Shown: in pieces, positions 33,441 to 50,326 of the stretch | Numbering within the stretch: position 1 is the first letter of the stretch | Layout of the letters: each line of letters begins with the position of its first letter | Assembly (NCBI RefSeq): GCF_000478195.2 | Contig: NZ_AUZM01000004.1 | Coordinates: 62,001 to 126,000, forward strand | Length of the DNA: 64,000 nucleotides | Reading direction: 5' to 3' | Source: Lyngbya aestuarii BL J | GTDB lineage: Bacteria > Cyanobacteriota > Cyanobacteriia > Cyanobacteriales > Microcoleaceae | Program-made: the position numbers and the translations under genes | Notes under the pieces: model-generated | What the model was told of the DNA's origin: nothing | Database searches by the model: none | The model's input: the letters and a program-made list of their open reading frames with translations, nothing else

Positions 33441-33795
33441 AAGGTTAGGGATTTAACGTGATCTCTTTTGAAAGGGGAATGGAGTTGCAACTCTGATTTA
33501 GAACGAGTTAGAATAGAGAGACGACGCTAGACTCATTAGTAGCATCGTTACAGTTGTTTTTGTTTGTGAATTTTATTTACAAATTGGCAGTTAAATCAAA
33601 CTTCAGGGTGGAAATTAAAAAAGTAATAAACTGATGATTAACGATCTCAAAATTGTTCTATTTGTGATATTAACTTAACAAGTTTATAGAATAAGTTTAG
33701 TTTTTGTTAACGTTAAATCGGCTGAAATACACTCATTATTATTGATGAATATTAGGGCAGTATTAAATTTAATTAAATCAGAGGTACAATAATTT
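33441..33795. other. AT-rich upstream region of the nSTAND gene
   Basis: 355 bp without a gene or repeat that I can see. It is AT-rich and probably carries the promoter of the large nSTAND/WD40 gene. Confidence 0.5.
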
Positions 33796-36700
33796 ATGGA
33801 CGATGAAAATAGGGGTAAAAACAACAGATCTTTTAAAACATTATTAAGAATAATTAATTATTTTTCCAATGAGTTTTCTTTGGTTTTTGTCTGTTGTAAC
33901 TATCGAGACTTACGTCAAAAAGTTATGCGGAGCTTACGAAAAAAATGTTTAGTTGAAATTCAAGAAATTATTTTAGAGGTAGAAACTAAGACTCTTTATA
34001 CCAATATAAAAAATTGTCTAGGTGAAACAAAACCTCATGCTTTGATGATTTTTGGTTTGGAATCTGTTAATAATATTGAAGAAGTTCTCAAAGCAACAAA
34101 TCAAATTCGAGAGGAGTTTAGTCAGTTTAAATTTCCTTTGATTATCTGGATTGATGATCATCTTTTACAAATGATGATTCGGTTGGTTCCTGATTTTCAT
34201 AGTTGGGCAACAACGTTTGAGTTTGTGATTCGTGAAAAAGAACTGTTAAAGTTTCTTAAAAAAACAACCGATGATGTCTTTCAAACGATTTCAGATAGTG
34301 GAGCGAGTATTTTTTTAGAAGATTCAAGCTTAAAGTTAGGAAAAGGTTCACCCCTGAGAAATGAACTTGAACTGGCTCAAGAAGATATCCAGAAACGTAA
34401 TATTCAACTTGATATAGAACTAGCGGCTAGCTTAGAATTTGTATTAGGTCGGATCAGTGATAATTCCACAGAAACCGCTCGAATACATTATGAAAAAAGT
34501 TTAGCACTCTGGGAACAAACGGATAATTTAGAACGTTGGGGGTATATTTTATTTTATCTCGGTTTTTGGTGGCATAGTCATGCCTTCTTAAATCATTCAG
34601 AACAAGAGCAATCTCATTTATTAGCTAAGAATTATTATCAGCAATCTCTCCATAAATTTAAACAAGATAATCGTCCAGATTTAGCCTCAAAATTTATCAA
34701 TGCGTTAGCGTTAGCTTTATATCGTCTCAAACAGTGGGATGAACTCGAAGATGTTGCTAAAAAAGCGGTTGGCTTACATAAAGTTTATTCACATCCGTTT
34801 CGACAAGCAAGAGGTTATCATTTTCTTTCTGAAGTCGCTTTCGCTAAAGAAAACTGGAAAAAAGCCAAAAAGTTAGCGGAAAAATCCCTCAATATTTTTG
34901 ATCAGGAAGTCCAAGAAAGACTGACGACCATTTTACATGAAGAAGTCACGTATTTAATTTGGGAAAAGTCTTTTCATAAACCTTGGTATTTATTCTCACT
35001 CGCCAAAGCCCAAAAAAATTTAGGTGAAATTGAAGAAGCAATTACAACTTTAAAACACGCTCAAAAAATTGCTAAACCTGAATATGATCCAGAATTTTAT
35101 GTTGATACTTTAAATCAATTATGGGAGTTATACTTTCAAAGTCTGCAATATTTGGATGCGTTTACAACGAAACAAAAACGGCGAGAAATTCAACAACAAT
35201 TTGGATTAAGAGCGTTTATTGGTGCGGGTCGTCTGGTTCACAGTCAATCGATTACAAATCCCGGTTTACCTTTTGTTGAAAAAAATCAAAAAATTAACCC
35301 TGAAATTGCTGCATCTGGACGAGTGCGAGATCTCGAACGTTTAGTTAGACGTATTCGCTTAAATGACCGAAAATTAATTGTGATTCATGGACATTCTGGG
35401 GTTGGAAAAAGCTCGATTATCCAAGCAGGTTTAATTCCTCAACTCAAAAATATTTTTGTAGAAGAACGTCGAGTTTTACCTGTTTTACAACGATATTATA
35501 CAAATTGGGTTCAAGCATTAAGTCAAGCCTTATCTGAAACTTTTAGTCTTCTAACTTCTATTCAATTTGACTCAAAAAATTGTCAAACATTGGACGAAAT
35601 AAAAACTTTTCTTCAAAAAAGTCTCAAAAATAATTTGCTAATTGTGATCATTTTTGATCAATTTGAAGAATTTTTCTTTGTTTGTAAAGAACCTGATCAA
35701 CGAAAACAGTTTTATCAATTTCTTAAATTTTGCTTAGATACTCCTTTTGTAAAAGTCGTTCTTTCTTTGAGACAAGACTACTTACACTATTTGTTAGAAG
35801 CAAATCGCCTTAAATATTTTGAAACAGTAAATGATAATGTTCTTGATAAAAGTATTCTCTATCATATTGGAAATTTATCGCCCGATGAAGCCAAATCTGT
35901 AATTAATCAATTAACAGAAACCACTCAAATTAAGCCAGAAACAACTTTAATTGATGAATTAGTAAAAGATTTAGCTCAAGAATCAAATGAAGTTCGTCCA
36001 ATTGAGTTACAAGTGGTTGGTGCCCAACTCCAAGCCATGGAAATTACCACGCTAGAACAATATCAAAAAGAGGGGCCTACTCTAAGACTTGTCGAAAAAT
36101 ATTTAGAGGAAGTTATTGCTGAATGTGGATCTGAAAATAAACAATTGGCAGAATTAGTGCTTTACTTGTTGACTGATGAGAACAATACTCGTCCTTTAAA
36201 AACTCGCTCTGATTTATTGCGAGAACTGAGAGAATTTGCTCGCTATGTGGAGCAAAAAACTCATAATTTAGATACCGTTTTGAAGATATTTGTCGCCTCT
36301 GGATTAGTCTGTTTATTTCCGGAGATTCCGGTAGGACGCTATCAGTTAGTTCACGACTATTTAGTTTATTTTATTCGTCAACAACGCAGTGCTGAAATCA
36401 TTGCTCAACTGGATTATGAACGAGAAAAACGAGAGCAAGTAGAAAAAGAACTAAATCAAGTTCTTCAACAAACACTCGAAGAAGCACAGGCAAATATTAA
36501 ACGGAAGAAAAAACAGTTGATTCTATCGTTGGGTGTAAGTTTAGCAATGGTTATTCTTTCGGCTACAGCAATCCTCAGTACCATCACGGTGAGAGAACAA
36601 AAAGCTCAACTCAGAAGTCAAAATATTGAAACTGCAAACTTTAACTATACTGCTTTTTTAATTGATAATAATCAGTTGGAAGCTTCTTTGAGTATTTTAA

Positions 36701-38685
36701 GAGGAGCAAAATATTTCAGAGAAAGCTTTACTGAATCTTCTTTGGAAAAAGAAACCTTACACAAACTTTGGGCTGTGGTAAATTTACTCCAAGAACGGAA
36801 TCGATTAGAGGGAGATTTTGGGAATGCAATTGGAGTGAGTGTGAGCAACGATGGTCAACTCATTGCTTCTGCGGGAGAAGATAAAAAAATTAAACTTTGG
36901 AACTTGGCAGGTCAACTTATTAAGGAAATAGAAGGACACGATGCACCAATTTTATATGTTACTTTCAGTCCTAATAGTCAAATGATAGCGTCAGCAAGCT
37001 TAGACAAAACGATTAAACTCTGGACACGAGATGGAACTATAATCCAAACAATTAGAGGACATGAAGATGTTGTTCAGTGGGTCAGTTTTAGTCCGGATGG
37101 TCAAACGATTGCTTCAGCTAGTCGCGATCAAACAGTCAAACTTTGGACGCTTGAAGGAGCTTTAATTACTACTTTAAAAGGTCATACAAGTCCGGTTTCT
37201 AGTGTCCTTTTTAGTCCGGATGGTGAACTGATTGTCTCCGCAGATGAAAATGGAACTTTAATCTTTTGGAACCGTCAAGGTCAACTGCTAAAAACCTTCA
37301 AAGCTCACGAAGGAAAAATTTGGAGTATTGCTTTTAGTCCTGATAGTCAGACTATTGCATCTGCTAGTGCAGATCAAAAGGTTAAACTCTGGGGTCGTCA
37401 AGGTCAACTTTTGAATAGTTTAGAGGAACATAAACACCCCGTTTATAGTATTAGTTATAGTCCGGATAGTCAATGTATTGTGACAGCCGACATTAATGGT
37501 AAGATGATTTTTTGGAGCCGGGAAGGAATCTTAAAAACCACGATTCGAGGTCATCGAGATGCTGTCAATCAGGTCAGTTTTACTCCTGATAGTAAAATGC
37601 TTGTTTCTGCGAGTCGAGATAGCACCGTAAGACTATGGAACTTGAATGGTATTCCTGAAGTTTTTCAACCGGATAAAAAAGTTTACAGTCCTATTTTTAG
37701 TCCAGATGGTGAGATTATTGCTTCTGTAAGTGCAAAAAATCAAGTAATTTTATGGAAAGTTAATCGCCGGGTAAAACAACAGCTTCCTTATACCTTGAGT
37801 CAACAACTCCCCTTTTCAGCACATAGAGATATTGTGAATAATATTAGTTTTAGTCCAGATGGTAAAATGATCGCTTCTGCGAGTCAGGATAAAACGGTAA
37901 AACTTTGGAATCTTCAGGGTGAAGTGATCAAAAACTTACCTCATAATGCTCCGGTTTGGACAGTAAAATTTAGTCCGGATGGAACACTAATTGCTACGGC
38001 GAGTGAGGATAGAATTGTTAGACTTTGGGATAATAGGGGTAATCTTTTACAGACGCTCAAAGGACATCAAAAACAAATCAACGATCTCAGTTTTAGTTCT
38101 GATAGTCAGTTGATTGCATCAGCGAGTGATGATAATACAATTATTCTGTGGAACCGTGACGGTCAACGTCTACAAACACTAATTGGAAATGGAAATAAAT
38201 TTTCATCAGTGAGTTTTAGCCCTTCTCATGGGGATGAACAATTAATTGTGGCGGCGATGGCTGATCGATCTCTCGATTTTTGGAAAGGTCAGAATACAAC
38301 CTGGGAAAGGCTGAATACGAGAACAGCAGTGGGTGGACATACAGGGGAAATTTATGAGGTGAGTTTTAGTCCGAATGGTGAAATAATTGCTTCTGCCAGT
38401 AGTGACGGTACGGTAAAACTCTGGGATCGCTACGGAAATTTAATTTCGACTTTGAGAGTCGGTTCAGCACCTATACTCTCGGTGAGTTTTAGTCCCGATG
38501 CTCAAACTTTGGTCGCGACGGATCAACAAAATCGAGTGATTTTCTGGAAGTTAGATACTAGCAAATTTAACAGTATTAATTTTTTGCTTCGACAGATTTG
38601 TATTCAATTTAATGATTATTTAAAATATAATTCGACGGTTGATCAAACCGATCAGGTACTTTGTGAACAGATCACTCCTTATTAA
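33796..38685 (+). CDS. Large TPR / nSTAND NTPase / WD40 double-propeller membrane protein
   Basis: A 1629-residue multidomain protein. Residues 1-190 form an alpha/beta domain I cannot name (SLVFVCCNYRDLRQKV, PHALMIFGLESV), like a STAND-associated effector or sensor. About 200-480 are TPR-like helices. An nSTAND P-loop NTPase follows: Walker A GHSGVGKSS at 532-539, Walker B IVIIFDQFEEF at 616-625, and a winged-helix-like part to about 900. A membrane helix lies at about 905-930, preceded by a basic coiled coil. From about 990, 14 WD40 blades (SFSPDG ... ASASxDKTVKLW) make two seven-bladed propellers. Such proteins sense a ligand by the propeller and trigger signalling or programmed death. Function inferred. 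Confidence 0.85.
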   Translation: MDDENRGKNNRSFKTLLRIINYFSNEFSLVFVCCNYRDLRQKVMRSLRKKCLVEIQEIILEVETKTLYTNIKNCLGETKPHALMIFGLESVNNIEEVLKATNQIREEFSQFKFPLIIWIDDHLLQMMIRLVPDFHSWATTFEFVIREKELLKFLKKTTDDVFQTISDSGASIFLEDSSLKLGKGSPLRNELELAQEDIQKRNIQLDIELAASLEFVLGRISDNSTETARIHYEKSLALWEQTDNLERWGYILFYLGFWWHSHAFLNHSEQEQSHLLAKNYYQQSLHKFKQDNRPDLASKFINALALALYRLKQWDELEDVAKKAVGLHKVYSHPFRQARGYHFLSEVAFAKENWKKAKKLAEKSLNIFDQEVQERLTTILHEEVTYLIWEKSFHKPWYLFSLAKAQKNLGEIEEAITTLKHAQKIAKPEYDPEFYVDTLNQLWELYFQSLQYLDAFTTKQKRREIQQQFGLRAFIGAGRLVHSQSITNPGLPFVEKNQKINPEIAASGRVRDLERLVRRIRLNDRKLIVIHGHSGVGKSSIIQAGLIPQLKNIFVEERRVLPVLQRYYTNWVQALSQALSETFSLLTSIQFDSKNCQTLDEIKTFLQKSLKNNLLIVIIFDQFEEFFFVCKEPDQRKQFYQFLKFCLDTPFVKVVLSLRQDYLHYLLEANRLKYFETVNDNVLDKSILYHIGNLSPDEAKSVINQLTETTQIKPETTLIDELVKDLAQESNEVRPIELQVVGAQLQAMEITTLEQYQKEGPTLRLVEKYLEEVIAECGSENKQLAELVLYLLTDENNTRPLKTRSDLLRELREFARYVEQKTHNLDTVLKIFVASGLVCLFPEIPVGRYQLVHDYLVYFIRQQRSAEIIAQLDYEREKREQVEKELNQVLQQTLEEAQANIKRKKKQLILSLGVSLAMVILSATAILSTITVREQKAQLRSQNIETANFNYTAFLIDNNQLEASLSILRGAKYFRESFTESSLEKETLHKLWAVVNLLQERNRLEGDFGNAIGVSVSNDGQLIASAGEDKKIKLWNLAGQLIKEIEGHDAPILYVTFSPNSQMIASASLDKTIKLWTRDGTIIQTIRGHEDVVQWVSFSPDGQTIASASRDQTVKLWTLEGALITTLKGHTSPVSSVLFSPDGELIVSADENGTLIFWNRQGQLLKTFKAHEGKIWSIAFSPDSQTIASASADQKVKLWGRQGQLLNSLEEHKHPVYSISYSPDSQCIVTADINGKMIFWSREGILKTTIRGHRDAVNQVSFTPDSKMLVSASRDSTVRLWNLNGIPEVFQPDKKVYSPIFSPDGEIIASVSAKNQVILWKVNRRVKQQLPYTLSQQLPFSAHRDIVNNISFSPDGKMIASASQDKTVKLWNLQGEVIKNLPHNAPVWTVKFSPDGTLIATASEDRIVRLWDNRGNLLQTLKGHQKQINDLSFSSDSQLIASASDDNTIILWNRDGQRLQTLIGNGNKFSSVSFSPSHGDEQLIVAAMADRSLDFWKGQNTTWERLNTRTAVGGHTGEIYEVSFSPNGEIIASASSDGTVKLWDRYGNLISTLRVGSAPILSVSFSPDAQTLVATDQQNRVIFWKLDTSKFNSINFLLRQICIQFNDYLKYNSTVDQTDQVLCEQITPY

Positions 38686-41680: not shown

Positions 41681-42022
41681 TTAACGGGGAAAAATCGCCT
41701 GATCTTCTACAATCATCTTCACAGACTCCGACTCTGCCAACGCATAAACTCCAGCGACGGTAATTTTAATCGCAATAGAACCCAAAACATTCGGACGTTC
41801 GCCGATCAGTTCCCCTTTATATTTTGTCAAAATCGGGCGAATATTATCAAGTTTATTTTCGGCAATTTGTTGAACTTCCTGGGGAGTTTTTTTGGTTCCC
41901 TGAGTTTCTGTTTTCAAAAAAACAATCACTCGAATCATTTCCCCTGAGTTCATACGAGATAACCGGGCTGCAAACTCCGAGCTAATTTTCATAGAATTGA
42001 GGACATAAATTTCTCCTGTCAT
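41681..42022 (-). CDS. Stand-alone I9-like peptidase propeptide/inhibitor protein
   Basis: A short protein (about 113 residues from ATG 42022; 103 from ATG 41992) with the fold pattern of inhibitor I9, the subtilisin prodomain: IRVIVFLKTETQG, a helix with AENKLDNIRPILTKY, then LGSIAIKITVAGVYALAESESVKMIVED. The ending IVEDQAIFPR resembles prodomain tails that sit in the active site. It lies about 400 bp downstream of the S8 peptidase on the same strand, so it may inhibit or fold that enzyme. No signal peptide. The start is uncertain; a third Met lies at 42073. Confidence 0.65.
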   Translation of the reverse strand: MTGEIYVLNSMKISSEFAARLSRMNSGEMIRVIVFLKTETQGTKKTPQEVQQIAENKLDNIRPILTKYKGELIGERPNVLGSIAIKITVAGVYALAESESVKMIVEDQAIFPR

Positions 42023-42418
42023 TGTATTCGGTAACTCAGAAAATTGAATCAACCAAAGGAAAGGAAATATCATAGATTTAAGTTAAAAAAATTGACCTCA
42101 CCCCTCCACCCCCTTTTTTAAGGCAGGGCTGTTTCATTCTCAGTTAAAAATTGCCGGGGTTGATGGTGAGTCCACCCCCGTGCGCGGGAACAAGCGCGTT
42201 GAGGGGAGTGGCTATCCCGTTGGGGGTGAAAGGGTTCCGGGGGTGATGGGGAGAGGAGTTTTTTCCTCCCTACCTCCCTACCTCCCCACCCCCCCACAAA
42301 TCAAGTTTTAGGGCCTTAACGCGCACGGCCCTGCTTTTTTAAGGGGGGATCAAGGGGGGATTAGAGAGGGGGAATTAATTTTTAATTCAAATCGGGGATA
42401 AAGTAGCCAGAGTATAGA
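42023..42418. other. Intergenic stretch with GC-rich nested inverted repeats
   Basis: Between the I9-like gene and the subtilase there are CACCCCC (42173-42179) / GGGGGTG (42222-42228), CCCG-TGCG-CGGG at 42177-42188, and AGGGCC (42310-42315) / GGCCCT (42327-42332). Runs of G and C flank them. I see no gene, only degenerate hairpin-type repeat DNA. Confidence 0.6.
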
Positions 42419-43747
42419 TTATTTCAGCGCTTCTAAGGCTTTTACAGGTTGAATTCGACCCCAACCCCAACGGTTATCCGGGCGCATTTCTTCACCACCG
42501 GGATGATAGGCGGTTTCTTTGAGGGCTTGAATAATTGCACTCAAAGGCGCTTTCGGATAAGCTGACATCAACAACGCCACAACACCAGCTACATGAGGCG
42601 TCGCCATGGAAGTTCCATCCATGTAAGTATATTGATAAATTCCATTGGGTTGTTGAACCGGAGGAATACAAGAATAAACCTGAGTTCCAGGTGCAGAAAC
42701 ATCGGGTTTTGTCACCCATTTATTCGGCGAATCTTCTGGGAAAACTAAACTCGCCCCACTACTAAAAAAGGCAATTCCTAATTCATCATTAGGAGACTTT
42801 TCTAACGCCCCAATTGAAAACGCATTATGAGCGCTTCCGGGTGAACTTGTATTCCCGTGATTTTCGTTTCCAATAGCAACAACAGGTAACACATCAAACT
42901 GATTGATCAGCATATCAAAAACTTCGGCAAACAAGGGTTCATAATAAGTCAAACCCAACGACATATTAATCACACTCGCGCCTTTTTCAATCGCCCAAGC
43001 CATCCCTTCAATTAAGGTTTGTAAAGTCGCATCTCCAATTAAAACACCACCCGCTAACAAATCGGCTTCTGGGGCTACCCCAATTGATACTCCTTTATCT
43101 GTTTTTCCGCCCGCAACCGTACCACAAACATGAGTTCCATGTTGTCCGGCGTCAAAATAAGGTGTCGCTGTAATTCGTCGTCCATTTGGGTCTACAATAA
43201 TAAAGTCTTTGACTCGATCTTTTAGAGCCGGATGATCACTATAAACACCTGTATCTAATACCGCAACTTTAACGCCTTTTCCTTTAGTGGTTTCCCACAT
43301 TTTGGCAATGTCTAAAACTTGCAAACCCCAAGTCATTTTTTGCTTTTCTTCTTGAGCCATCAAATCAGAATATTCGATTTGTTGGGGTTTAATTAGTTTG
43401 ATTTTTTGGTTGGGGATAACTGCAACAATTTCGGGTTGTTCAGCGAGGGCGGCAAGGGTATTACGAGTCACTTCTACTGCCGCGATAGGTAATGCACCAG
43501 AACCCACTTTTGTCGCGTGTAATGACTGACCTGTAGCATTTTGATAATTCGTCGCCATTCGAGCAACAACGTCTGTATTTTGTTGGCTGTTTTGTTGCAT
43601 CACTTGGAAACGTCGTTCATCACCCCGAGAAGGCATTTCTTCGGGGGGACGTTCGGTTCTGTAAATAACAATCGCATCTTGTTTACAGTTGGGATCACTA
43701 CTCCCTAAAGCCGGGAAAAAAGCGGAAGAAATTTTCGGTGTATTCAT
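42419..43747 (-). CDS. S8 family serine peptidase (subtilase)
   Basis: A 442-residue subtilisin-type protease. The catalytic triad is complete: Asp in VAVLDTGVYS, His in GQHGTHVCGTVAGG and Ser in DGTSMATPHVAG. The first 110 residues have an I9-like propeptide pattern (VEVTRNTLAALAEQPEIVAVIP). No signal peptide is visible, so it is either intracellular or exported by another route. The first 40 residues (MNTPKISSAFFPALG) are not conserved in type. A stand-alone I9-like gene follows on the same strand. No calcium-binding repeat is obvious. Confidence 0.9.
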   Translation of the reverse strand: MNTPKISSAFFPALGSSDPNCKQDAIVIYRTERPPEEMPSRGDERRFQVMQQNSQQNTDVVARMATNYQNATGQSLHATKVGSGALPIAAVEVTRNTLAALAEQPEIVAVIPNQKIKLIKPQQIEYSDLMAQEEKQKMTWGLQVLDIAKMWETTKGKGVKVAVLDTGVYSDHPALKDRVKDFIIVDPNGRRITATPYFDAGQHGTHVCGTVAGGKTDKGVSIGVAPEADLLAGGVLIGDATLQTLIEGMAWAIEKGASVINMSLGLTYYEPLFAEVFDMLINQFDVLPVVAIGNENHGNTSSPGSAHNAFSIGALEKSPNDELGIAFFSSGASLVFPEDSPNKWVTKPDVSAPGTQVYSCIPPVQQPNGIYQYTYMDGTSMATPHVAGVVALLMSAYPKAPLSAIIQALKETAYHPGGEEMRPDNRWGWGRIQPVKALEALK

Positions 43748-43986: not shown

Positions 43987-45378
43987 TTATGAATTGTTCT
44001 CTAACATCGCAATACAATCAATTTCGACTAACACATCTTTGGGTAAACGCGACACTTCTACACAAGCCCGAGCAGGTGCATTTTCGGTTTCAAAATACTG
44101 TCCATAAACGCTATTGATCGCGGCAAAATCATTCATATCTTTGAGGAAAATAGTTGTTTTGACGACCTCTGACCAACTCGCCCCTGCTGCGCTTAAAACG
44201 GCTTCTAAGTTAGCCATAATTTGTTCGGTTTGTTTAGCCACATCTTGGAGATGAACAATTTGATTTGTTGTGGGATCGATAGAAATTTGCCCGGCGACAA
44301 AGACCATCCCATTCGCAATTACGGCTTGATTGTATGGGCCAACAGGAGCAGGGGCTTTATCTGTCCGAATAATTTGACGTGTCATCGCTTTAATTTGGGT
44401 AAGTTGAGTTAAGCTTGTATCCATTTCACAGATTTCTCCATCGGGCATCACAGCCCCTAGAAATTCAGCATTTTCGAGGTTCGCCCCGTAGAGGTTCGCA
44501 TCGGTTAAATCTGCTCCAATTAAACTTGCTCTACTCAGATTAGCACGAATTAAATTCGCTTGATTAAGATTAACAATTCTTAGGTTTGCACCCTCAAAAC
44601 AGGTTTCTCGAAGATTGGCATTTTTGAGGTTTGCACGATTAAGATTTACTCTCGCTAGATTTAATTTTGACAAATTAATCCCGGTTAAGTTGGCTTGTTG
44701 GAGTTTGGCACCTTCTAAGTTGGCATCTTGTAACCGAGCGTTACTCAGTTCTGCTAAACTTAAATCAGATTCTAATAGAATTGTCCGAATTAAATTGGCA
44801 TCTTGTAAGTTTGCTTTTTTAAGGTTCGCTCGGGTTAAATTGGTTTCCAGTAGATTAGCACCACATAAGTTAGCTTCTGATAAATTCGCCTCGGTTAAAT
44901 CCGCTCGACTTAAATTCGCAACAACTTTATCATACCAACTTAAACTCGCTGAACTTAAGTCTGCACCTCTCAAATTGGCACTAATTAAATTCACCGCATC
45001 TAAGTCTGCATTGTGAAAGTTTGCTTGTTTTAAATTCGCATGATTTAGACTCGCTCCGGTTAAATTTGCCCCGGTTAAATTTGCTCCGGTTAAATCAACT
45101 CCATGTAGTTTTGCTCGTCCTAAATCAGCCTCATTTAAAGTTGCATAGGAAAGAATAGCTTGACGTAAATCTCCCCGTAAATTCGCAGAAGTTAAGTTAG
45201 CATGAGAAAGATTTGCTCGCATTAACTTTGTTTCATTGAGATTGGCGTCAGTAAGATCAGCATTTTTCAAGTTGATATCACTTAAATCGAGGCGATCTAA
45301 ACTGGCTCCTACAAGTTCAACGCCTTCAAAATCTCGTTCTCCTTTGGTGTATCGTTCCAAAAGTTCAGTCGCATACAT
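43987..45378 (-). CDS. Pentapeptide-repeat / RidA fusion protein, copy 1 (RidA site intact)
   Basis: A 463-residue fusion. Residues about 20-330 are pentapeptide repeats (A(N/D)LxxANL type), a four-sided beta helix, with one break near SWYDKVV. The last 128 residues are a full RidA (YjgF/YER057c) domain: PVGPYNQAVI, VFVAGQISIDP, VVKTTIFLKDMNDFAAIN, APARACVEVSRLPKDVLVEIDC. RidA enzymes hydrolyse reactive enamines/imines; here the positions matching Tyr17, Arg105 and Glu120 of E. coli RidA are kept, so activity is likely. I chose ATG 45378 because it aligns with the paralogue start and has GGAG upstream; GTG 45396 and ATG 45393 are alternatives. Confidence 0.9.
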   Translation of the reverse strand: MYATELLERYTKGERDFEGVELVGASLDRLDLSDINLKNADLTDANLNETKLMRANLSHANLTSANLRGDLRQAILSYATLNEADLGRAKLHGVDLTGANLTGANLTGASLNHANLKQANFHNADLDAVNLISANLRGADLSSASLSWYDKVVANLSRADLTEANLSEANLCGANLLETNLTRANLKKANLQDANLIRTILLESDLSLAELSNARLQDANLEGAKLQQANLTGINLSKLNLARVNLNRANLKNANLRETCFEGANLRIVNLNQANLIRANLSRASLIGADLTDANLYGANLENAEFLGAVMPDGEICEMDTSLTQLTQIKAMTRQIIRTDKAPAPVGPYNQAVIANGMVFVAGQISIDPTTNQIVHLQDVAKQTEQIMANLEAVLSAAGASWSEVVKTTIFLKDMNDFAAINSVYGQYFETENAPARACVEVSRLPKDVLVEIDCIAMLENNS

Positions 45379-45694
45379 TATCGGTGTCTCCATCACCCAA
45401 TGAGTTTTAGTTTACAACCAAACTGTAAATTTTCTTACCTTTTTATTTTATATTAATATTTGTAACCTCTCCCCAACCTCTCTTTGAGAAAGCTACCATA
45501 TATACACATCTTGAGTTCAACATTAAAATTCTATATTTTGCCCCCCTTTGCCCCCCCAAAATTGGGAGGAACTCAAGTCTAGAAGTCCCCCAGAGTTGGG
45601 GGATTTAGGGGGCAATAGTCAACTCAATACTTCTGGATACACAGAAACCTTTTAGGGGAGGGCTAGGGAGGGGTAACAAATCCAATCACTTAAC
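45379..45694. repeat. G/C-run inverted repeats between the two fusion genes
   Basis: TCCCCCA (45586-45592) pairs with TGGGGGA (45597-45603) around GAGT. TTGCCCCC near 45538 and AGGGGGCAA near 45607 form an outer arm. No gene is present. This is a common intergenic palindrome type of filamentous cyanobacteria and may end transcription of copy 2. Confidence 0.65.
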
Positions 45695-47020
45695 CTAACG
45701 ACTCAACGCTACACATTCGATTTGAACGAGGGCATTTTGGGGAAGTTGAGCGACTGCAACGCAAGCACAAATGGGAGCAGTTTCAGTATCGAAATAGTTG
45801 GCATAAATAGCGTTCATCCCTGCAAAATCACCCATATTTTTTAAGAATATTGTTGTTTTCACCACGTCCGCCCAAGTTGCTCCCGCTTCGGCTAATATTA
45901 TCTCTAAATTTGCCATAATTTGTTCGGTTTGTTTGCCGATATCGTCCTCGTGTAAAATGCTGTTCAGTCGCGGATCGATGCCAATTTGTGCCGCTACATA
46001 TATCATCCCGTTCACAATAACCGCTTGATTTCGAGAGTTAGGCGGTTCGGGGGCTTTGTCTGTATTAATAATTTTTCGAGTATGATAAATTGGTAGATTA
46101 TACATCACCTGAAGATCGTTAAAATTTAAGATTTCACCATCTGGCATAATTGCACGAGTAAAATCAGCATTTTCAATATTCCATCCGTAGGTTTTGGCGT
46201 TCAGTAAGTTTGCTTTATGAAAGTTTGCACCACTCAAATCAGCTTTCATTAAATTCGCTCCTTGTAAATTGGCTCGATCTAAAATCACTCCTTGCAAACA
46301 AGCATTTTTAAATTTTGTATTTTCTAATGTCGCCACTGTCAAATCACAGTTAACTAAATTTAAGCCTGATAAATCCATCCCATTTAAACTAACGGCTCTA
46401 AGTTTTGCAGAATTTAACTTGATGCCTTTAAATATTAGATTTTTTAAATTAGCTCGGCTCAAGTCTGCTTTTGTTAAATCAGCATCAGTTAAATTAGCAC
46501 CGGTTAAAATAGCGCCGCTTAAATCCGCTTCGATTAAATTTACTCCTGTTAAATTAGCACTACTTAAATTAATTTCACTCAGATATGCCTTCTTGAGATT
46601 AGCACCACTCAGATCAACGCTAACCAATTCAGCATTACTTAAATTAGCTTCTTCTAGGTAAGAACCAATCAACTTTGAGCTGCTTAATTTTGCTTGACTT
46701 AAATTAGCGTCCCTTAAATCAGCTTGATTTAAAATTGCAGAACTCATTGTTACTTGACTCAAATTTGCTCCTCTGAGAGAAGCATTTGTCAAGTTCATAG
46801 AATCAGCTACTATACTAGATAGATTCGCATTATTTAAGTCTGCTCCTTGTAGAATAGCCGAAGATAATTTTCCTTTAGATAAATTTGTTCCAACTAAATC
46901 AGCACCACTGAAGTCTACTTGAACTAAATTCTGTCCTTGAAGATCTAAGCCACTGAGTTGTTCACCTCTAAAGTTTCGTTCGCCTTGAGCATATTTCTCT
47001 AACAGTTCTTTAGCGTCCAT
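45695..47020 (-). CDS. Pentapeptide-repeat / RidA fusion protein, copy 2 (RidA site degenerate)
   Basis: A 441-residue paralogue of copy 1, with the same order: MDAKELLEKYAQGERNFRG, pentapeptide repeats to about 310, then a RidA domain. The RidA domain keeps the fold (VYVAAQIGIDP-like block, VVKTTIFLKNMGDFAGMN), but the site differs: ARACVEV is ICACVAV, so the catalytic arginine is Cys; VEIDC is VQIEC, so glutamate is Gln; and GPYNQA is NSRNQA, losing the tyrosine. Enamine hydrolysis should fail, which suggests a binding or structural role. GGAG precedes the ATG. It lies 299 bp upstream of copy 1 on the same strand. Confidence 0.9.
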   Translation of the reverse strand: MDAKELLEKYAQGERNFRGEQLSGLDLQGQNLVQVDFSGADLVGTNLSKGKLSSAILQGADLNNANLSSIVADSMNLTNASLRGANLSQVTMSSAILNQADLRDANLSQAKLSSSKLIGSYLEEANLSNAELVSVDLSGANLKKAYLSEINLSSANLTGVNLIEADLSGAILTGANLTDADLTKADLSRANLKNLIFKGIKLNSAKLRAVSLNGMDLSGLNLVNCDLTVATLENTKFKNACLQGVILDRANLQGANLMKADLSGANFHKANLLNAKTYGWNIENADFTRAIMPDGEILNFNDLQVMYNLPIYHTRKIINTDKAPEPPNSRNQAVIVNGMIYVAAQIGIDPRLNSILHEDDIGKQTEQIMANLEIILAEAGATWADVVKTTIFLKNMGDFAGMNAIYANYFDTETAPICACVAVAQLPQNALVQIECVALSR

Positions 47021-47388: not shown

Positions 47389-48963
47389 ATGGCTCAAAAT
47401 GAAACCCGTAACGAAGCAGAAGTCCGTTCTCGAAAAGTAGACGACTTGCGATCGCTGGGAATAGACCCCTACCCCAGTCAATCCTTTGCGCGATCGCACA
47501 CCGCCCAAGCCATCAAAGATCTATTCTCCCAGCCCGAAAATGAACTCCAAGACGGCGTTGCAGACCCCAACGAAGCCCCCCTCAAAGTGTGTGGACGCAT
47601 CACCTTCAAGCGCGATAGTGGGAGTATTGGCTTCATTGGGTTAACCGATACGTCGGGAACCATTCAACTCAAAATCGAGAAAAAACTCGTCACGGGAGAA
47701 TCGGGTGGATTATCTTTTAATCAAATCAAAAAATTATTAGATACCGGAGATTTTATCAGCGCTGAAGGAATAGGTTGTCGCACAAACCGAGGCGAACTTT
47801 CTGTACAAGTTCAACGATTAGACGTGCTTTCAAAAGCAACTATTCCCTTTCCTGACTCCTATTATGGCGTCAATGATCCCGAAATTTGTCGGCGTCATCG
47901 AGAGTTAGGATTAGTCAGTAGTCCTGAATCTTTTGCTACGTTTAAACTTCGTAGTCGCATTATTAAAAGTATGCGAACCTATCTGTGGAATGCAGAATTT
48001 GATGAAATCGAAACTCCAGTTTTACAAGCGATTTACGGCGGTGCTGCGGCGCGTCCATTTATTACTCATCACAATGCTTTAGATATTGATTTGTATCTGC
48101 GAATTGCAACCGAATTGTTCTTAAAACGGGCAGTTTGTGGGGGATTTGAACGGGTGTTTGAAATTGGGCGAGTGTTTAGAAATGAAGGCATTGATAGCAC
48201 TCATAATCCTGAGTTTACATCCGTTGAAGCGTATCAAGCCTATGCTGATTATTTTGACTTGATGACGTTGGTAGAAGATTTAATCTGTGTTGTGACGAAA
48301 GATGTATTAGGTGATGTTAGCGAAGTAGACTATCTCGATGATAAAATTAGTCTAGAGCGGAAATATGACTACAGCGATATTTATCCCAGTTTTACCGGAA
48401 AGCATTGGAAAGTGCAAACAATGGTAGAAGCAGTGCGGGAAAAAACAGGCTTAGATTTTGACACGTTGGAGTTGGGAGAAGCGATAAAAGAAGCAGAAAA
48501 ATTGGGTTTAAAACCTTCAAAGTTACATACTCAAACGTTAGGCTATTTGTTGTATGCGGTGTTTGATCAAAAGGTAGAATCAACTTTGATGGAACCGACA
48601 TTTATTATTGATTTTCCCGTGGAAGTCAGTCCTTTAGCCAAGCGTCATCGTTCTAAACCCGGGTTTGTTGAACGGTTTGAATTATTTATTCACGGTACCG
48701 AATATTCTAACGGATTTTCGGAGTTAAATGATCCGGTTGATCAACGTAAACGGTTTGAAGAACAACTCGCCCAAAAAAATGCAGGGGATGAAGAAGCGCA
48801 TCCAATGGATGAAGATTTTATTCAGGCGTTATCGTTAGGAATGCCAACTTGTGGCGGGATGGGAATTGGTGTAGATCGAGTGATTATGTTGTTAACTAAT
48901 ACTCAAAGTATTCGAGATGTGATCATGTTCCCAACTATGCGTTCAACGTTGAAAGATTCTTGA
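47389..48963 (+). CDS. Lysyl-tRNA synthetase (class II), divergent form
   Basis: A 524-residue class IIb LysRS. It has the OB-fold anticodon domain (LKVCGRITFKRDSGSIGFIG), motif 1 (MRTYLWNAEFDEIETPVLQ, shown to 20), motif 2 (FEIGRVFRNEGIDSTHNPEFT) and motif 3 (GMGIGVDRVIMLL, then RDVIMFPTMR). LysRS-type pieces such as RIATELFLKRAVCGGFERV make it LysRS rather than AspRS or AsnRS. It differs from the usual cyanobacterial enzyme in the linker (DSYYGVNDPEICRRHRELGL), where the norm is a YRxRYVDL block. It may be a second LysRS; I therefore give no symbol. The palindrome at 48982 follows. Confidence 0.88.
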   Translation: MAQNETRNEAEVRSRKVDDLRSLGIDPYPSQSFARSHTAQAIKDLFSQPENELQDGVADPNEAPLKVCGRITFKRDSGSIGFIGLTDTSGTIQLKIEKKLVTGESGGLSFNQIKKLLDTGDFISAEGIGCRTNRGELSVQVQRLDVLSKATIPFPDSYYGVNDPEICRRHRELGLVSSPESFATFKLRSRIIKSMRTYLWNAEFDEIETPVLQAIYGGAAARPFITHHNALDIDLYLRIATELFLKRAVCGGFERVFEIGRVFRNEGIDSTHNPEFTSVEAYQAYADYFDLMTLVEDLICVVTKDVLGDVSEVDYLDDKISLERKYDYSDIYPSFTGKHWKVQTMVEAVREKTGLDFDTLELGEAIKEAEKLGLKPSKLHTQTLGYLLYAVFDQKVESTLMEPTFIIDFPVEVSPLAKRHRSKPGFVERFELFIHGTEYSNGFSELNDPVDQRKRFEEQLAQKNAGDEEAHPMDEDFIQALSLGMPTCGGMGIGVDRVIMLLTNTQSIRDVIMFPTMRSTLKDS

Positions 48964-49219: not shown

Positions 49220-50326
49220 ATGTTAAATTATCTAACATCAAGATTGTTTGAAATAATCAGAGTGTCATCTATGTCTCGCATCTACTCTTATAACATCGCC
49301 TTAACCACTTCTTTATTAAGTGTGTTAACTGTAGGAACTGTTTCGGTTCAAGCCGCTAGCCTGGATTCTCGTTTTAATCAAATCTTTGTTTTTAGTGATA
49401 GTCTTTCAGATCCGGGTAATATTTTTGAAGCTACAAATGGAGCGGTTCCAGAAAATCCTTTATCCTTCGGTGGACGCTTTTCTAATGGGCCAGTTTGGAC
49501 AGAATATTTGAGTCCAAAATTTGGCTTAAATCCCACTCCTTTTACGAGTCCGGTTCAGTCTTCAGATGGAACAAATTATTCCTTTGGAGGGGCGACATCG
49601 GGTGATCTGAATATCATTAATATTCTCCGCCCTGATATTCCGATAGAGTTTCCGGGATTAACTCAAGAACTCAATTATTTTATTGAACCATTATTAGCAC
49701 AAAATCAATCGGCAAATCCCGATGCGCTTTATGTAGTTTGGGCGGGTGCAAATGATTATATATTTGGTGGCGTGAGTGATCCGACAATACCTGTTAATAA
49801 TATATCAAAGGCTGTTCACTCGCTGTATGATGTTGGCGCTCGGAACTTATTACTGTTAAATTTACCGAGTTTAGGGAATACTCCGTTAGCTTTAAATAGT
49901 GATTTCCAGGAACCTTTAAATCAATTAACTGCGGCTCATAATTTTTTATTAAATTCAGCAGTAGAAGGCTTAAATCAATCCTTAACAGGCGTTAATATTG
50001 GTTTAGTTGATGTTAATGCTACGGTTAACAGCATTTTGCAAAATCCTGGTGAGTTTGGATTAACTAATGGTACGGATAGTTGGTCAAATGCAGTCGCGGC
50101 TTGTCTAGAAGTGGGTTGTGAAGAATTTCCCAATCCTGATGAATATCTCTTTTGGGATTTAATTCATCCAACAACAGCAACTCACGAAATTATTGCTGAC
50201 ATGGCTTACTCCACTGTACAGTCACAATTTCCAAAAGTTCCAGAACCCACGTCAATACTGGCGTTGAGTGCATTAGGTTTAGGATTTTTGTTCAATCAAG
50301 TTTCATCTCATCGCCGCAAAAACTAA
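49220..50326 (+). CDS. GDSL/SGNH esterase with PEP-CTERM sorting signal
   Basis: A 368-residue exported hydrolase of the GDSL family (lecithinase/thermolabile-hemolysin branch). Block I is FVFSDSLSDPGN (nucleophile Ser), then GGRFSNGPVW, WAGANDYIFG (Gly/Asn oxyanion residues) and DLIHPTTATHE with the Asp-His pair, so the site is complete. A signal segment lies near residues 18-46. The C-terminus has VPEPTSILALSALGLGFLF and a basic tail: a PEP-CTERM signal, which is cut by exosortase. Start 49220 has GGAGA four bases before it; ATG 49271 (MSRIYSYN) is a credible alternative that gives a cleaner signal peptide. Confidence 0.88.
   Translation: MLNYLTSRLFEIIRVSSMSRIYSYNIALTTSLLSVLTVGTVSVQAASLDSRFNQIFVFSDSLSDPGNIFEATNGAVPENPLSFGGRFSNGPVWTEYLSPKFGLNPTPFTSPVQSSDGTNYSFGGATSGDLNIINILRPDIPIEFPGLTQELNYFIEPLLAQNQSANPDALYVVWAGANDYIFGGVSDPTIPVNNISKAVHSLYDVGARNLLLLNLPSLGNTPLALNSDFQEPLNQLTAAHNFLLNSAVEGLNQSLTGVNIGLVDVNATVNSILQNPGEFGLTNGTDSWSNAVAACLEVGCEEFPNPDEYLFWDLIHPTTATHEIIADMAYSTVQSQFPKVPEPTSILALSALGLGFLFNQVSSHRRKN

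Follow-up and report, generated by a model that had tools for sequence, protein, structure and literature searches.

Known Rid proteins and pentapeptide-repeat proteins

The RidA subfamily (TIGR00004, PF01042) comprises imine/enamine deaminases. In published RidA structures, Arg105 binds the substrate carboxylate, and Glu120, as seen in Arabidopsis RidA, enters the pocket from the neighbouring subunit (PMC4960622). A salt bridge between Lys73 and Glu122 (K136–E182 in Arabidopsis) ties the subunits together and is important for trimers (PMC4960622). Replacement of the same arginine by alanine in the Arabidopsis protein (R165A) leaves 2.2% of the activity (PMC4960622), and the Rid subfamilies without Arg105 are thought unable to hydrolyse imines (PMC4433059). 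In Rid4–Rid7, the essential arginine has been lost naturally with the Rid fold retained; these separate subfamilies keep Glu120 and mostly the tyrosine (PMC4433059). A multidomain variant, 3x-RidA, carries three RidA domains in tandem (PMC4433059). In parallel, pentapeptide proteins have been assigned roles in protein binding: HetL acts by binding the regulator HetR (PMC7476756), and others are gyrase mimics (PMC8145042).

The locus described here brings the two folds together in two adjacent genes, copy 1 and copy 2. Both resemble the RidA subfamily in fold and family score, and copy 1 does so in its catalytic residues; they differ from it in that the domain stands behind a long pentapeptide beta-helix, and copy 2 lacks Arg105, Glu120 and Tyr17. 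Copy 2 has in common with Rid4–Rid7 the natural loss of the arginine within a retained Rid fold, but it lacks all three residues and falls outside those subfamilies, having Gln120 and nesting among cyanobacterial RidA fusions. As in 3x-RidA, a multidomain protein would be built on a RidA trimer, but here from one RidA domain and a beta-helix arm. The arm has the quadrilateral beta-helix of HetL, Alr5209 and Np275, the Nostoc pentapeptide proteins that are its closest solved structures; those are free-standing, whereas the helix here is longer and has a RidA domain attached. SopA (PMC8145042) likewise joins an N-terminal pentapeptide beta-helix to a C-terminal enzyme domain, but its catalytic domain and role are unrelated, and an inactive paralogue of the copy 2 kind was not found in the literature consulted. 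A search of the open-licence literature for pentapeptide with RidA, YjgF or L-PSP returned no description of the fusion.

Two fused genes at one locus

The window, a stretch of 64,000 nucleotides from Lyngbya aestuarii BL J, carries on its minus strand a pentapeptide-repeat/RidA fusion with intact active-site residues (copy 1, 43987..45396) and a pentapeptide-repeat/pseudo-RidA fusion of 441 aa (copy 2, 45695..47020). Both reading frames are open at these coordinates and match Pfam and TIGR00004 models, which confirms the two same-strand fusions of the preliminary description. The GTG of copy 1 at 45396 is probably not the true start; the ATG at 45378 gives a family-like N-terminus, MYATELLERYTKGERDF, and a protein of 463 aa. 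The two proteins have the same layout: a capping helix, a beta-helix of 55–59 pentapeptides, a conserved cap (A-x-M-P-D-G-E), a linker of ~20–30 residues, and the RidA domain. In copy 1, the beta-helix of ~59 pentapeptides follows the N-terminal capping helix at 44449..45330 and the RidA domain lies at 44005..44376; in copy 2, a beta-helix of ~55 pentapeptides (46148..46972) is followed by the MPDGE cap and flexible linker (46076..46147) and a degenerate RidA domain (45704..46075), all on the minus strand. Pfam matches are strong for both halves of copy 1 (pentapeptide E 1.4e-73, RidA domain E 9.7e-46) and of copy 2 (7.7e-62 and 3e-34), and the NCBIfam RidA model TIGR00004 scores 173.9 bits for copy 1 and 131.7 bits for copy 2, both above the curated cut-off of 106.25 bits. 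A frameshift or assembly artefact behind the copies was considered and rejected, both frames being open and relatives alike.

The predicted structure of copy 2 consists of a continuous beta-helix (residues 16–294, pLDDT mostly 81–98), a disordered linker (residues 296–315, pLDDT <50), and a RidA fold (mean pLDDT 84) that superposes on solved RidA chains with TM 0.8–0.9. Foldseek matched the arm to HetL and Np275/Np276. The model of copy 1 is poor in its RidA part (pLDDT mostly 30–55) despite a canonical sequence.

Two neighbours serve as locus markers: an S8 peptidase downstream of copy 1 (42419..43747, minus strand), which adjoins a fusion or an unfused RidA in two related genera, and the divergent lysS (47389..48963, plus strand), which flanks the single active fusion of genus g3 and the unfused RidA of genome G004. 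Between the copies, 45540–45615 is a short C/G-rich dispersed repeat with ~20 more partial matches genome-wide. After the peptidase, 41681–42073 encodes a 130-residue protein with no Pfam match, which may at a guess be a free-standing propeptide-like inhibitor; in G015, a relative (44%) likewise comes after the peptidase (L069:5044-5532). Farther out, 33793–38682 encodes a 1630-residue protein with an STAND-type NTPase (nSTAND1) and many WD40 repeats, and 49220–50326, from a reading of its sequence, a secreted SGNH/GDSL-like protein with a PEP-CTERM-like tail.

Loss of active-site residues in copy 2

Alignment with E. coli RidA confirmed the residues first reported for the two copies. Copy 1 has Tyr17 (codon 44332–44334), Gly31, Asn88, Arg105 (44068–44070), Cys107 and Glu120 (44023–44025), keeping the tyrosine, arginine and glutamate as claimed. 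Copy 2 has Arg17 in place of the tyrosine (46031–46033), Ala31, Asn88, Cys105 for the arginine (45767–45769), Cys107, and Gln120 for the glutamate (45722–45724); Asn88 is thus retained while Tyr17, Arg105 and Glu120 are all gone. The changes go beyond those named in the preliminary description: they take in all of the active-site loop (PVGPY to PPNSR) as well as the adjacent strands (A104I, R105C, R112Q, K115Q, V117A and E120Q), and all fall at positions with at least 95% conservation across 120 intact RidA domains. Lys73 and an acidic residue at 122 are present in both copies, and the Lys73–Glu122 pair is kept in copy 2. Copy 2 has nine replacements in common with copies from a sister genus (g10), out of 53 sites at which 95% or more of the 120 intact relatives agree: V14P, G15N, P16S, F28Y, A104I, R105C, R112Q, V117A and E120Q, the one exception being a g10 copy with Lys at the R112Q site. 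Several of the nine belong to the loop and strands from which the RidA substrate pocket is built. By residues, RidA membership extends to copy 1, which has Arg105, Glu120 and Tyr17, and not to copy 2; by score, it extends to both. Lacking the three residues, copy 2 is classed here as a homologue of RidA rather than a RidA enzyme.

Spread of the fusion in cyanobacteria

The domain order had been presented as unusual; it proved ordinary in this clade, and the idea of a rare architecture unique to this genome was rejected once fusions were found across genomes of the order. Of the 391 genomes sampled from the order, at least 105, belonging to 11 family groups, contain a fused frame, counted when it has at least 300 residues and judged by frame length and the reach of the match (the arm was read directly in fetched loci only). 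Already among the first 60 genomes searched, many of the best Rid matches sit in frames of 370–474 residues, and among the named carriers are Microcoleus, Tychonema, Nostoc, Anabaena, Rivularia and Aphanizomenon. Nostoc punctiforme NIES-2108 has a match to the fusion (L173). Across a phylum-wide sample of 386 genomes, the sole match outside the order under a strict threshold was an unfused RidA. In 14 of the first 60 genomes, all 99–100% complete (G008, G010, G011, G014, G016, G021, G022, G025, G026, G029, G032, G033, G035 and G055), the fusion, with intact residues, is the only gene of the Rid superfamily, and is therefore the housekeeping RidA there. Six genomes of genera g6 and g7 (G005, G006, G012, G018, G023 and G027) show cap and linker homology upstream of a short RidA frame, broken by stops, as if the fusion had reverted to an unfused RidA.

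Degenerate copies and locus history

Tyr17, Arg105 and Glu120 are kept in 142 of the 153 distinct fused genes read; one further gene is truncated by a contig end. The Cys105/Gln120 type comprises copy 2 and five tandem genes in two single-contig g10 genomes, three in G009 and two in G015. All six form one clade (support 100/99) on long branches; from the cap through the linker to the RidA domain, the g10 dead copies match copy 2 at 46–48% identity, and a P-N-S loop is common to all. A scan of named genomes gave 80 loci, nearly all of them intact fusions and none of this type; the fused gene at L184 is frame-broken at its end, and a Microcoleus vaginatus copy of 188 aa (L122), outside the counted fusions, has Pro for Arg105. 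Among the five g10 dead copies, positions 73 and 122 are Lys/Glu in two, and Thr/Gln, Asn/Gln and Thr/Lys in the others; the two positions therefore change together, which may indicate altered or exclusive trimers, or weaker ones.

Partial losses occur elsewhere. A fusion in G037 (L052:2566-3807) has Asn17, Glu73, Glu88 and Ala120, keeps Arg105, and has its interface pair altered to Glu/Asp; one tree joins it to the dead clade (40/10), and another places it elsewhere. The same fusion carries a stretch, AQLPQNALV, identical to copy 2, for which convergence and shared descent are both possible. In genus g65, Tyr17 has become Cys in two of the three genomes without loss of Arg or Glu, and an intact unfused RidA lies 1–2 kb away; these fusions (L222, L223 and L224), with their changed Tyr17 loop, may represent the same trend at an early stage, reached independently. 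Every genome with a degenerate fused domain (G000, G009, G015, G037, G122 and G204) has another intact RidA.

In genus g3, a single active fusion sits between lysS and the S8 peptidase, where the window has copies 2 and 1. The active RidA of g10, an unfused one, adjoins the same peptidase, with a transposase-like gene inserted in G009; the dead array lies between a 6-phosphogluconate dehydrogenase and an S4-domain gene (names read from sequences). The tree places copy 1 beside the unfused RidA of g10 (support 93/82). An AU test gave p 0.197 for holding copy 1 and copy 2 together, and the tree is compatible with either copy 1 or the g3 type as the source of copy 2. The simplest reading of these sequences would be a duplication in the common ancestor with catalytic loss in one copy; in g10, the active copy would then have lost its arm, and the dead copy moved and multiplied.

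Selection on arm and core

Among diverged tandem copies in g10, dN/dS is 0.15–0.33 in the RidA half and 0.5–0.7 in the arm. The RidA half lies below neutral expectation in all five pairs, which share genes and are not independent (counts of changes; p 0.014 to 1.2e-5). Between arm and core, two pairs differ with p 0.003 and 0.007, and the other three give 0.06–0.18. Synonymous rates are broadly alike in both halves, and gene conversion alone therefore cannot explain the contrast, to which it may add. Copy 2 has no close relative, so the case for selection on it rests on the replacements in common with g10. Random residues or frame breaks in relatives of copy 2 had been proposed as the mark of mere decay; the relatives instead carry the same Cys and Gln in unbroken frames under purifying selection. 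The dead type is rare but apparently not the product of decay. With catalytic residues lost and fold and selection retained (selection having been measured on the sister-genus copies), copy 2 is, to judge from its sequence, a pseudoenzyme, and the dead-enzyme reading is well supported.

A proposed pseudoenzyme scaffold and its alternatives

We put at about even the chance that copy 2 is a pseudoenzyme scaffold, its RidA core kept as a trimerisation hub for three long arms. The ancestor would have been an active fusion of beta-helix arm, flexible linker and RidA domain, an architecture that is the usual form of RidA across much of the order. A duplication, probably at the lysS/S8-peptidase locus, would have freed one copy from catalysis; Arg105, which binds the substrate, Glu120, which serves the pocket of the adjacent subunit, and the loop with Tyr17 would then have disappeared from the freed copy, which kept the fold and, in this genome, the Lys73–Glu122 bridge. 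It is this loss of Arg105 and Glu120 with retention of Lys73–Glu122 that leads to the hub reading. Copy 2 would most likely be a three-fold hub offering three arms, of ~14 coils each, to a partner protein, and copy 1 would carry on imine hydrolysis. The arms are taken as the binding parts because pentapeptide proteins with known roles bind proteins. Trimer assembly, arm-mediated binding, the absence of copy 2 activity and the order of duplication are all inferred. Counting against the hub, the Lys73–Glu122 pair is lost in three of the five g10 dead copies and altered in G037, and the arm–core difference in dN/dS reaches p <0.01 in only two of the five pairs.

An unlikely and unsupported alternative is that the two copies assemble into heterotrimers in which copy 2 tunes or damps the activity of copy 1, the Arg105 and Glu120 of each pocket coming from different subunits. 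The copies adjoin on one strand, both have Lys73 and an acidic residue at 122, and the glutamate is supplied by the adjacent subunit in Arabidopsis RidA (PMC4960622). The fused active/inactive pair from which the preliminary description drew mixed trimers is not conserved, however: g10 has its own dead arrays among unrelated genes and an unfused active RidA elsewhere, by the S8 peptidase, and the salt bridge of the shared interface is gone in three of five g10 dead copies. Nor did the suggested co-occurrence of an R/E copy with a C/Q copy extend to other tandem fusion pairs, those of G296, G309 and G368 (L219, L218 and L217), in which both copies have the active-site residues.

Slightly less probable still is a new ligand, metal or redox site, in which Arg105 to Cys would create a Cys-x-Cys motif (C105, C107) in each inter-subunit cleft for binding a metal or sensing oxidants or a new ligand. 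All six dead-type genes have both C105 and C107, changes in the loop and strands flanking the pocket are common to them, and the RidA domain is under purifying selection; but C107 is ancestral, so that only one residue is new, the sample is small (six genes in two genera), and a ligand signature was not found. It is very doubtful that copy 2 is still a deaminase acting on an altered substrate through other residues. Natural RidA proteins with Ser in place of the Arg exist, and loss of the Glu alone leaves at least a quarter of the activity (PMC4433059; PMC4960622); yet in copy 2, Arg, Glu, Tyr and the loop have changed together, and Arg to Ala by itself already removes nearly all activity (PMC4960622). 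Relaxed decay, with the RidA half a passenger heading to loss and the beta-helix alone of importance, is the most improbable reading, since the long branches of the dead clade and the genome's retention of an active copy and an ilvC-linked Rid protein, which would allow it, are set against open frames, specific replacements common to two genera, a dN/dS well below 1 and below that of the beta-helix, and a TIGR00004 score still above the cut-off.

Implications

The pseudoenzyme scaffold may extend beyond this locus. We consider it possible, though somewhat less than even in probability, that pseudo-RidA hubs recur in cyanobacteria: after duplication, fusions would shed their catalytic function but not the trimer core, and would expand into tandem arrays whose arms diversify, the result being a modular binding platform with three arms. 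The functions of pentapeptide-repeat proteins in cyanobacteria are almost all unknown (PMC8145042), and here the other half of the protein has a defined chemistry, which offers a handle. The arm belongs to the housekeeping RidA in many genomes, and because dead versions occur in nature, what the arm does can be told apart from what the enzyme does. If true, the scaffold would show clearly how an enzyme of metabolic repair can become a structural hub.
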